64,000 nt of DNA from Pseudobdellovibrionaceae bacterium (GCA_018663505.1 JABJQG010000071.1:1-64000), one strand, 5' to 3'; positions 7,784-12,313 are shown, counted from the first letter of the stretch. Notes: generated by a model from the sequence alone, not told the origin. Translations and numbers: made by a program.

Positions 7784-10700
7784 CTATATAGTTCTAGATT
7801 TTAAATATAAATCCATTCTTCCCAATAATTTATATAAATTAATTGCTAATAATTCATTAGCATATTGCAAATTTATAGTCTGCAACAAACTTCTATCATA
7901 GGCATCTTGAAGCTTAACATAATCTAAAGTTGTAATTTTGCCATTTTTAAAACGTCTTTCTTCAATTTTTAATATACTTTTTTGTTTCTCTTTAATTTCA
8001 CTTAGAGAGTTAACTTGGGATACATTTGACTGAATTTGTTTTTTAATTTCAAAATAAATAGCAGTTAATCTTTTCTTCAGCTGATTTTTCTTTAGCCTGG
8101 CTTGAGATTTGCGACTAAGTAACTTTCCTATTTCACTAACTTTTACCGTATTTCCTAATTCGAAATTCCAAGATAAACCTGCCATAACCTCATACTTATC
8201 CAAGGTATTCTCAGATAACGATGCACTGGCATCTTCCCCCCGACCATAACTTTTCATGGATACAAATAAATCTACATTGGACTTTTCTTGTTCTTTTTCA
8301 AGATTAATCAAACTATCTATAAGCTCTTCATTATTGCTTGCTAATCTAGTGGTATATCCTTTCTTAATAATATCTTGCAATTCATTATCAGAAAAACTCA
8401 AAGCTGCAGAATGCGTATCCATATTTGGTGAAATTTGAGATAATAAAATCTTCTTATCAACTTCCAATATTCGATTAAACTTAATAAGTTCAATATCAAT
8501 AAGTGATGTTAACTTAGCCAGTGTTTTATTTCCATTTATAAGTTCAACGTCAGATGTTAAAAGTTCCGATTTACTAATAATCCCAGACTTTCTTTTTGTT
8601 TTATTTAATTCATGAATTTTTCTAAAGCGTTTAATTGAAGATAACGTAATTTCTCTTTCAGACCTACTCCTAAGAAGTGTCCAATAAGAGACTACAGCAT
8701 CTACTAAAACCCTCTCTTTACCATCCTTAGATTTTAATCTGAAATCAACTTCTTTTATTTTTGCTGTTGATTTCCTTAAATAATACTCACTACTGCCAAA
8801 GTTTCTATTTAAGGGAATCCCTATTCCTGCACTATAAACACTGTCCATAGCATCTAAGGAAAACTGAGAGTTCTGGGGTGTGGTACCCATCATTCTATCT
8901 TCTAGTCCTATGCCTACGTCATACTTAAATCCCAGGGATGTCATTTTTGAGAAATCAACACTTAAACCATAACTGTCTTTTTTAGAATCAGCAGTTATTG
9001 GCGGGTTAGGATAAGCTTCTGAGGAAAAAGAATACATTTTACTAGATATTCGGCCGTCCAACATGCCTTCCACAGCTTTTGATTGAAACTTTGATTGCTT
9101 TATATTTTCATTTTGTACTTTATATTCATTAGAATTATCTAATATTTTTACTATTTCATTAATCCCAATCTCCTCTTCTGCTTGAACTAAATTTGGCTTA
9201 AATGAAAATGAAAATATAAGTAACGCTGTGACTATAGCTGATACACTGGTAATTTTTTTAGTATTTATTTTTTCGCCAATTTCAACTCCAATATAAAATA
9301 GTGAAGGGATAAAAAGCAACACAACAGTTGTACCAAACATTAACCCATACAAAATTGCCAATGAAAGAGGCGACAATAAATTGTCATATCCACCAATTGC
9401 ATAAGCTGTAGGAGCCACAGCAAGCACTGTGCTTATGGTAGTTAAGGTTATGGGTCTCAATCTTTCCTTGGCTGCCCTCACAAGAACCTCTTTTGAAAAT
9501 CCACCATTATTTTTTATAAGTTCCGACAAGTGGTCTATCAAAACAATAGAGTCATTGACCACAATCCCAGAGAGCCCAATGAGTCCCATTCCAGCAAACA
9601 TTGACATTGGAAGTCCGTGAAAATAAAAAGATATAAAAATACCCACAATACCAAATGGTATAACCGCCAAAATTAAAAATGGCTTACTATAGGAATTAAA
9701 CATTAAACTCAAAATAAAGTAAATACCTAAAATGGCCATTAAGCCTGCAGAAATTAAACCACCAAATATTTTAGCTTCCTCAACAGGTCGGCCACTAATA
9801 ATGAATTTTACATCTTTCGTATCTGTAAACTCTGCCTTAAAGAGATCAAGCATTCCCAAAACCGTTACTTTGTTTGGATCAATACCTCCTGTAACAGAAG
9901 TGGACCTTGCTCCATTAAATCTTTTTATTTCTGCATAGGATGGTTTCTCCTCGTACTTAATCATAGTTTCTAACTTAATCAACTGACCCCTTCTATTTGC
10001 TATTGGCAATTTAGAGATAAAATCTAAATCTCCTCTTGTTTTCTTGTTTAACCTTAATCTGTAATCATAAGTTTCGTTAACTGAGGTAAAATCTGTTACA
10101 ACCTGGCCATCAAAGGCTATCCTTAGAGTTCTAATTATATCAGCAGGTGTTAAACCTGCTTGAGCTACCTTTTTGTAATCAAGTTTTAAATTAATTTCAT
10201 CTTTACCCGGAATGTAATCATCTTTAACGTCATACACTCCATTCATTGAACTGATAAATGCAATAACCTTATCTGAAAACTTTTTTCTTATACTATCGTC
10301 ATTAGAAGACACTATAATTTCAAAGTCCTCGCCAAGAGGAGGACCCACTCGCATGAGTTCAAATGCAACCTCATATCCTTTGACCGAGAATTTATTTCCA
10401 ATTTTTTGTTTAATATCATCTATTATATTGTTTGCTGTTCGATCTCTATCACTATAAGCCGTCAGATAAACAATCAATGTGACCAAGTTTTCTTCAGTTC
10501 CATAGCCCGTTAAAGAGCTGGCGCTATGGGTACCTAACCTGGATGTATACCCCTCAAGTTCGTTCTTAGGTAGTTCATTAAGGTAAACTTCAAGCTCCTC
10601 AACCACGCTTTCAACTTTTTCTGGAGCTACACCTTTTTCAAGAGTCATATTAATAACGAAACCTTCTGATGCTTCTTGCGGAAAGGCATCTTTCCTAAGC

Positions 10701-12313
10701 TTCTTTGCCCCAACAAATGCACTGGCCATAAAAATAATCACAAATAGGCCAACCACATAATACCTAAAATCAAGCAGCTGCATAAGAACCTTTTCATAAA
10801 AATTCTCCCAAAAAACTACTAGCTTATTCTTTTTCGTACCATGCTTTGATACTTTTGAATGCGCTAAATGTGCTGGCAACAGAATATAACAATCAATTAA
10901 GGATACCAACAATGCGATCATTACAACCACGGGCATTTGCCAAATAAACTTTCCTGGTAACCCACCCAACGAAAGCAAAGGTAAAAATGCGGTAATAGTC
11001 GTTAAAGCAGCTGCAAAAACAGGTTTCCAAAGTCTTCCCACAGCGTTACTTGCTGCTTCTTCCGGTGGATCGCCATTTTCTAAATTCACATCATATCTCT
11101 CACTTATTACCATAGCATCATCCACAATCATACCGAGTATGATTACAAAAGCCCCCATAGAAACCGAGTTTAGAGTAAAACCTAAAGGAGCAAAAAGAAT
11201 CATGCTACCAAAAATAGAAAATGGAATTCCAAAGGCTGTCCAAAAAGCTGTTCGACTTCCTAGAAAATAAAACAAAAGGATAATAACCAATACAAAACCT
11301 AAAATTCCATTTTTCTTTAACAGATCAAATTTACTTCTCGCTTTGTCTGACACGTCATTATTTATTTGATACTTAACTCCTGCTGGAAATTTTATTCCAT
11401 CTAAATATGCTTTAAGCTTATCTGAAACCTTTAATTGATCCATTCCACTACGAATGGCAATCAATATTGTTGCGCCTCTTTCTCCATTATTTCTAACAAT
11501 AAGCTTCTCGTCCTTGGCATGATAACTGATTCCTGCAACATCTTTTAAATAAACACCCTGACCATCTGGGGACATTCGTATAATAGTATTTAGTACATCG
11601 TCGGCATGTTCAAACTTGTTAAATGAAACTATTTTCTTTTGTGAGACAAATGACTCTAATGTCCCGCCTGTTCCCACTTGATTTCGTGCATTTATTGACT
11701 GAAAAACTGTATTTAAATCAATTTCTTTCTCTAGCGCTTTTATAGCATCCACTTCAATATGAATTTCTTCATCAGCAAGTCCCACCGTATTTACACCAGA
11801 TACCCCTGAAATTTTCCTAAGACCTCTCTCTATGCCTGGAACAATACCCCTTAAATTTCTATACTCACCTGTAAATGCAACTTCCATAATTGGACGATCT
11901 TCTGTAGTCACACTTGTGATAATAGGCAAGCCATCAATATCAGCTGGAAAATCATCAATTTTATCAATCTCAGTTTGTACATCTGCAACTAAATCTTTAA
12001 ATTGTAGTTCATTAAGATCATCATCAGCAAATACTGTTACACGAGATACACTTTCTATGGAGCTTGATCTGAATTCTCTTATCTTTCCAATTTCAGATAG
12101 CCGGTCCTCAATCTTAGTCGTGAGATTTAGTTCCACGTCTCTTGCCGATGCCCCCGGGTACTTTGTCACAACAATAATTTGATTCATAGAAACCGCTGGG
12201 AAAGACTCCTTGGGGATTTTATATAAAAAATATCCGCCAAGTGCAAAATTGAGTACCAGTATAAAATTGACTAATATTGGTCGTCTAATAAAATATAGTG
12301 AAATCTCTTTCAT
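7784..12313 (-). CDS. RND efflux permease fused to a TolC-like outer-membrane factor
   Basis: A 1509-residue polypeptide. Residues 1 to about 1015 form a complete RND permease: TM1 at 11-30, periplasmic porter domains, a five-TM block from about 335 with the proton-relay pair D398-D399 (GMIVDDAMV), TM7 near 510, a second porter domain and a final TM block (about 855-1010). A Lys-rich hinge, a hydrophobic stretch and LVQA then form a signal-peptide-like segment (about 1018-1045). Residues 1046-1509 resemble a TolC/OMF: beta and long coiled-coil helical segments with the internal duplication typical of the family. No adaptor (HlyD/MFP) gene is adjacent. The TetR-type gene lies 8 bp upstream. 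Both halves are full length. An assembly or indel error is not excluded, but no ATG, GTG or TTG start exists in frame near the OMF's signal segment. Confidence 0.8.
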   Translation of the reverse strand: MKEISLYFIRRPILVNFILVLNFALGGYFLYKIPKESFPAVSMNQIIVVTKYPGASARDVELNLTTKIEDRLSEIGKIREFRSSSIESVSRVTVFADDDLNELQFKDLVADVQTEIDKIDDFPADIDGLPIITSVTTEDRPIMEVAFTGEYRNLRGIVPGIERGLRKISGVSGVNTVGLADEEIHIEVDAIKALEKEIDLNTVFQSINARNQVGTGGTLESFVSQKKIVSFNKFEHADDVLNTIIRMSPDGQGVYLKDVAGISYHAKDEKLIVRNNGERGATILIAIRSGMDQLKVSDKLKAYLDGIKFPAGVKYQINNDVSDKARSKFDLLKKNGILGFVLVIILLFYFLGSRTAFWTAFGIPFSIFGSMILFAPLGFTLNSVSMGAFVIILGMIVDDAMVISERYDVNLENGDPPEEAASNAVGRLWKPVFAAALTTITAFLPLLSLGGLPGKFIWQMPVVVMIALLVSLIDCYILLPAHLAHSKVSKHGTKKNKLVVFWENFYEKVLMQLLDFRYYVVGLFVIIFMASAFVGAKKLRKDAFPQEASEGFVINMTLEKGVAPEKVESVVEELEVYLNELPKNELEGYTSRLGTHSASSLTGYGTEENLVTLIVYLTAYSDRDRTANNIIDDIKQKIGNKFSVKGYEVAFELMRVGPPLGEDFEIIVSSNDDSIRKKFSDKVIAFISSMNGVYDVKDDYIPGKDEINLKLDYKKVAQAGLTPADIIRTLRIAFDGQVVTDFTSVNETYDYRLRLNKKTRGDLDFISKLPIANRRGQLIKLETMIKYEEKPSYAEIKRFNGARSTSVTGGIDPNKVTVLGMLDLFKAEFTDTKDVKFIISGRPVEEAKIFGGLISAGLMAILGIYFILSLMFNSYSKPFLILAVIPFGIVGIFISFYFHGLPMSMFAGMGLIGLSGIVVNDSIVLIDHLSELIKNNGGFSKEVLVRAAKERLRPITLTTISTVLAVAPTAYAIGGYDNLLSPLSLAILYGLMFGTTVVLLFIPSLFYIGVEIGEKINTKKITSVSAIVTALLIFSFSFKPNLVQAEEEIGINEIVKILDNSNEYKVQNENIKQSKFQSKAVEGMLDGRISSKMYSFSSEAYPNPPITADSKKDSYGLSVDFSKMTSLGFKYDVGIGLEDRMMGTTPQNSQFSLDAMDSVYSAGIGIPLNRNFGSSEYYLRKSTAKIKEVDFRLKSKDGKERVLVDAVVSYWTLLRSRSEREITLSSIKRFRKIHELNKTKRKSGIISKSELLTSDVELINGNKTLAKLTSLIDIELIKFNRILEVDKKILLSQISPNMDTHSAALSFSDNELQDIIKKGYTTRLASNNEELIDSLINLEKEQEKSNVDLFVSMKSYGRGEDASASLSENTLDKYEVMAGLSWNFELGNTVKVSEIGKLLSRKSQARLKKNQLKKRLTAIYFEIKKQIQSNVSQVNSLSEIKEKQKSILKIEERRFKNGKITTLDYVKLQDAYDRSLLQTINLQYANELLAINLYKLLGRMDLYLKSRTI

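Follow-up and report, generated by a model that had tools for sequence, protein, structure and literature searches.

A predicted polyprotein of an RND permease and a TolC-type outer-membrane factor in Bdellovibrionota

Efflux pumps of the resistance-nodulation-division (RND) type are considered here with respect to a locus of a Pseudobdellovibrionaceae bacterium (GCA_018663505.1 JABJQG010000071.1:1-64000; this whole stretch of 64,000 nucleotides is referred to as the window), in which an RND permease and a TolC-type outer-membrane factor are encoded by one open reading frame (ORF). The locus, linked to a TetR-family regulator, probably encodes a pump in which a single polyprotein with an internal Sec signal peptide supplies both the permease and the outer-membrane factor, the factor being released by signal peptidase I. 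If this is true, parts of one envelope-spanning machine that belong to different membranes can be synthesized as a single chain and sorted to their places by a signal peptide within it, and the ratio of permease to factor is fixed by one-chain synthesis. Each half belongs to a known family, and no description of an RND-TolC fusion was found in the open-access literature, subscription papers lying largely outside the search; as far as searched, a processed two-membrane polyprotein is undescribed in that literature.

One reading frame with two domains

The ORF comprises 1509 codons, begins with ATG and contains no internal stop (Table 1). The presence of a permease and a TolC-like domain in a single frame, proposed in the first-pass annotation made from the sequence of the window, was borne out by Pfam matches to ACR_tran and OEP within this 1509-aa product. 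The ACR_tran match is full-length (residues 5-1008, profile positions 2-1019 of 1021, E 7e-157), and the permease is homologous to MexB, MexK, TriC and AcrB (E 1e-65 to 1e-75). The Asp pair of the fourth transmembrane helix (TM4), D398/D399, aligns with that of MexB and is invariant in 8/8 orthologues. The TM10 Lys (K939 in MexB, K940 in AcrB) is replaced by Asn920 in the MexB alignment, this Asn being invariant in the family, and the window permease is therefore not filed as an AcrB orthologue.

The C-terminal part contains two OEP stretches (Pfam, E 3e-13), and two repeats per protomer are expected for the TolC family. The AlphaFold model of residues 1046-1509 resembles a TolC protomer, with a mean predicted local distance difference test (pLDDT) score of 75.6 and less certain strand regions. 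The best Foldseek matches of this part were all TolC-family proteins, namely TolC, CmeC, OprM and CusC (E ~1e-12, TM-score 0.6-0.7). A profile search of PDB with the outer-membrane part gave no match by sequence, and its fold is for this reason assigned from Pfam and Foldseek. The Rfam scan of the window gave no match.

Table 1. Coordinates of the fusion, its predicted parts, its neighbors and the independent fusions found elsewhere
Feature	Location	Strand	Remarks
RND permease::TolC-type outer-membrane factor fusion ORF	7784..12313	minus	1509 aa; single open frame; Pfam ACR_tran + OEP
RND permease domain, residues 5-1008	9290..12301	minus	Pfam ACR_tran, MexB alignment, eight-orthologue invariance
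Hinge and signal-peptide-like segment, residues 1014-1045 (EKINTKKITSVSAIVTALLIFSFSFKPNLVQA)	9179..9274	minus	signal peptidase I predicted to cut after Ala1045
TolC-type outer-membrane factor, residues 1046-1509 (mature if cleaved)	7787..9178	minus	Pfam OEP x2, AlphaFold, Foldseek
TetR-family regulator, 209 aa	12322..12951	minus	Pfam TetR_N; stop 8 bases upstream of fusion ATG
Small hydrophobic membrane protein, 129 aa	7344..7733	minus	downstream, same direction; orthologues by pump in relatives
Second-family fusions	L100:5021-9514 (= G200:C10); G201:C85; G273:C286; G319:C190; G347:C34; G350:C33	minus (L100)	
Persicobacter fusions (two species, Bacteroidota)	L087:3953-8353; L089:4001-8404		plasmids CP012860.1 and NZ_AP025295.1; WP_338399011.1

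The junction and the predicted fate of the chain

The domain junction reads GVEIGEKINTKKITSVSAIVTALLIFSFSFKPNLVQA/EEE (slashes mark predicted cuts), exactly as described in the first-pass annotation: a Lys-rich stretch is followed by a hydrophobic segment and by LVQA, which ends at Ala1045. It thus presents a positive n-region, an h-region with a mean Kyte-Doolittle hydropathy of 2.43 and a V-x-A site. A net-positive stretch, a 12-residue hydrophobic core (mean hydropathy 2.4-2.8) and an A-x-A type site are present in 8/8 orthologues. Within a linker that drifts, with three to six residue types in each of columns -26 to -4, position -1 is Ala in all eight and position -3 is V, V, T, T, V, A, A, V, as would be expected for a signal peptidase I site; the site of L043, PIPVMA/QEKLN, fits this pattern. 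The internal segment also aligns with the N-terminal signal peptide of a split orthologue, L044, which is described below. Judged by its conservation, the junction looks like a signal peptide, and cleavage by signal peptidase, as earlier suggested, is the best-supported prediction in view of the invariant motif and the normal signal peptide of the split relative.

RND permeases end on the cytoplasmic side after TM12, and with the C-terminus so placed a positive-then-hydrophobic segment is correctly oriented as an export signal. In the proposed mechanism, the permease would insert co-translationally and end on the cytoplasmic side, and the Lys-rich stretch and hydrophobic segment would serve as a Sec signal peptide within the chain (N-in, C-out), by which the outer-membrane factor is threaded into the periplasm. 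A cut by signal peptidase I after Ala1045 would then free a normal TolC-type protomer and leave ~37 extra residues on the permease. The freed factor would assemble in the outer membrane by the usual route and join the permease in a 3:3 assembly. Since the components would come from one chain, they would be produced in equal numbers (1:1), in keeping with the pairing of trimer with trimer in known pumps. How the chain inserts, its cleavage, the placing of the factor in the outer membrane and the assembly are what we infer.

If the chain stayed uncleaved, it would be a two-membrane protein in which the segment forms a thirteenth transmembrane helix and tethers the factor to the permease. The core is hydrophobic enough for a membrane span, but a mere anchor gives no reason for a strict Ala at -1 and a small residue at -3 in a drifting linker. 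Such a tether would also be too short, as the N-terminus of TolC in the known structures lies in the periplasmic barrel, several nanometers above the inner membrane, and the helix of the outer-membrane domain begins only a few residues past the site in the AlphaFold model. Tethering is accordingly considered improbable.

Several points weigh against release by cleavage. The signal-peptide call is based on motif, hydropathy and conservation, and the AlphaFold model of the permease has a mean pLDDT of 47, which makes it unusable for junction topology. Furthermore, an in-frame ATG precedes the signal segment in G015 and G186 and, within the second fused family described below, in L100 and L105; in these, a separately initiated factor could supplement cleavage or take its place. 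In G186, AGAGGTGCTAAAATG stands in frame just before the segment, so this genome could make both the fusion and a separate factor, and in G015 the ATG has AGGA upstream. These starts favor an explanation in which two products arise from one frame by internal translation initiation, or by a mixture of initiation and proteolysis. However, a scan of residues 1000-1079 of the window protein found no ATG, GTG or TTG in frame, in agreement with the earlier remark that a start is absent near the signal segment. From TM12 to the hydrophobic core, a canonical start in frame is absent from the window, G199, G200 and L043, and only non-canonical starts would serve in these four; internal initiation is regarded as quite improbable.

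Conservation, origin and recurrence of the fusion

A-rich runs sit at the junction, and the first-pass annotation had pointed to the stretch at about 9240-9270 as a place where an indel, introduced by sequencing or assembly, might have merged two genes. The split orthologue, which is one base off the fused frame in a run of eight A (A8), could be read in the same way. In the related genomes, however, the same in-frame fusion was found six more times within Bdellovibrionota (G015, G186, G187, G199 = L042, G200 = L041, and L043, whose contig ends just past the junction, so that the junction is visible and the outer-membrane domain is not). Frame 0 is stop-free across the 38 junction codons in 7/7 fusions, with two to six stops in each other frame (three each in the window), and the chance that 38 random codons are stop-free is 3-5% per sequence. 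The same frame thus stands in six other separately assembled genomes, whose identity to the window is mostly 50-70%; for the clade, this rules out that an indel near 9260 in a single assembly made the fusion, and assembly error in general is scarcely credible as an explanation.

The orthologous fusions of G015, G186, G187, G199 and G200 are 1508-1512 aa long, and whole-protein identity to the window is 63% for G015 and 59% for G199 and G200. G186 (100% complete, 5 contigs) and G187 belong to a different family of the phylum than the window. Identity to the window is 65-71% for the permease and 44-50% for the outer-membrane part, and this faster evolution of the latter could be taken as a sign of a decaying or non-functional fusion, a pseudogene in the making. 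Against this, nonsynonymous substitution (dN) is well below synonymous substitution (dS) in both parts when G199 and G200 are compared (dN 0.010 vs dS 0.09, and dN 0.015 vs dS 0.12), the frame is intact in 7/7 fusions and the cleavage motif is kept. As judged from this pair of genomes, both parts of the fusion are under purifying selection, and decay is very improbable.

The split orthologue was found in G008 (= L044, JAUVAX010000049.1), in which two genes overlap by ATGA, the TGA of the permease lying inside AAAATGA. The ATG of the overlap, with GAGGTG upstream, opens a 490-aa outer-membrane factor that begins with MKKTTLLIIFSIILGSPLSNMVYA/KD, a textbook signal peptide located at the same place as the internal segment of the fusions. 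One extra A in the A8 run would restore the fused frame; the fused or split state of this metagenome-assembled contig hangs on that one base. The run (CAAAAAAAAG, L044:11040-11072) lies just before the overlapping stop and start, and contains, read in the frame of the permease, the heptamer A_AAA_AAA, at which a -1 frameshift might occur and yield a fused product too.

In the permease tree, the G008 gene falls within the fused clade beside G186 (four-row clade, 96/99), and a topology in which the fused rows were constrained together without G008 was rejected (approximately unbiased (AU) test, p 0.007). The split form is thus disfavored as the ancestral one. Since it is nested in the fused clade and one base off in the A8 run, it can be taken either as a derived fission or as a frameshift site; its split state may also come from assembly error. 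An old fusion followed by a single fission would be the simplest history, with the fusion looking ancestral. According to the first-pass annotation, the fusion would be refuted if relatives carried the two parts as separate genes, with an evident start for the factor; one such relative, G008, does exist, nested inside the fused clade. The pump tree also interleaves genes from two families of the phylum, and this mixing suggests that the pump cassette moved horizontally between lineages.

A second fusion, found by chance in G200 (G200:C10), was used as the query against 291 genomes from the phylum. It belongs to a different RND family, in which fused frames of 1475-1501 aa occur in six genomes and ~40 homologues are unfused. 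Junctions with the signal device were found in G200, G201, G347 and G350 (e.g., GFSCSLAQA/KEM and FFPAKTSA/VE), and the sequenced junctions consist of an Arg-rich stretch, a hydrophobic core and an A-x-A type site. These proteins resemble the window protein in having RND and TolC in one ORF and differ from it in RND family; in G200, an adaptor gene lies upstream of the fusion and overlaps it.

Outside the phylum, plasmids of two Persicobacter species carry single ORFs (1466-1467 aa) that combine ACR_tran and OEP and include an internal signal peptide. Unlike the window protein, the Persicobacter fusions belong to a different RND subfamily, are overlapped by an upstream adaptor gene and have a predicted cut before Gln (SSG/Q, SWG/Q); a Gln after the cut is what is expected of substrates of signal peptidase I in Bacteroidetes (PMC5837995). 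They are annotated merely as a permease subunit or carry no annotation, an example of how automatic annotation hides such fusions. Two other leads were not borne out. A Parabacteroides plasmid match (97% of query) turned out to be three ordinary separate genes, and CusA-like annotations of ~1450 aa in Bacteroidota were not confirmed, since the six loci examined contained split CusA or ordinary separate genes. On the plasmids of Pontibacter, Runella, Hymenobacter and Haliscomenobacter (L090, L091, L093, L094, L095), the CusA-like permease is present as two adjacent genes (~430 + ~640 aa), behind which lie a gene for TolC and two for adaptors.

A positive stretch, a core and an A-x-A type site are shared by five of the fusions that arose independently. 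As far as sequences can tell, RND::TolC fusion with an internal signal peptide arose separately in three RND lineages, and the sharing of one device by three unrelated fusions argues for processing over tethering. The recurrence suggests a general evolutionary route: since the C-terminus of the permease lies inside the cell, a neighboring signal peptide need only be fused to it. The single-base step between the fused and split forms makes this route directly testable.

A parallel in design is FbcH of Bradyrhizobium japonicum, a cytochrome b/cytochrome c1 polyprotein with an internal signal sequence that is cut by signal peptidase. As in the window, a polytopic inner-membrane protein is followed in frame by an internal signal and an exported protein; the proteins themselves are unrelated, and both FbcH products stay in the inner membrane, whereas the factor of the window would reach the outer membrane. 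Compared with AcrAB-TolC, MexAB-OprM and CmeABC, the window locus shares a homologous permease, a TolC/OprM/CmeC-like factor and an adjoining TetR-type regulator, but it differs in that a single ORF, including an internal signal peptide, encodes permease and factor, that an adaptor gene is missing from the locus and that Asn replaces the TM10 Lys. Components that are usually separate are also joined in one chain in the fused adaptor dimer DSY0927 of efflux systems (PMC4446572) and in SecD-SecF of Thermus (PMC8277102). Those fusions join like with like in one compartment, whereas the window protein joins parts of two membranes.

Neighboring genes and the adaptor question

The absence of an adjacent adaptor gene, remarked on earlier for the window, was confirmed: the fusion is flanked by the TetR regulator upstream and the small membrane protein downstream, and no adaptor gene adjoins it in any locus examined, the split locus included. 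The genome of the window (97% complete) was searched with TIGR01730, PF16576 and PF13437, which a very divergent adaptor could escape; one adaptor above the cut-off was found on contig C58, beside a heavy-metal-type pump, together with one weak partial TIGR01730 match at C41. Given its count of at least six RND permeases, adaptors seem scarce in this genome. At two further loci of the same genome (L059 and L060, on C24 and C19), an RND permease lies directly behind a TolC-type gene, with no adaptor next door. Several adaptors are encoded elsewhere in the genomes of G187, G199 and G200, so adaptor sharing is possible there.

That the periplasm is bridged by a borrowed or unrecognized adaptor is our conservative guess. 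A two-component pump, in which permease and outer-membrane factor at 1:1 engage without a dedicated adaptor, perhaps helped by the downstream small membrane protein, would be a bolder and rather doubtful alternative. The adaptor-free locus makes it testable whether an RND pump works without a dedicated adaptor.

TetR orthologues (52-62% identical) lie beside the pump in L042, L043, L044, L076 and L077. The small membrane protein (~130 aa) is found downstream of the pump in five loci, namely the window, G015, G186, G187 and G008 (39-53% identical); it matches no Pfam family above the cut-off, and no equivalent was found among the ORFs listed for L042 behind the pump. The protein may serve efflux systems more generally as an accessory, since it also occurs at L101:4925-5347 (G164) in a different efflux-type operon, which, judged from the starts of the sequences, contains genes for a TetR regulator, an outer-membrane-like protein, an HlyD-like protein and an ABC transporter.

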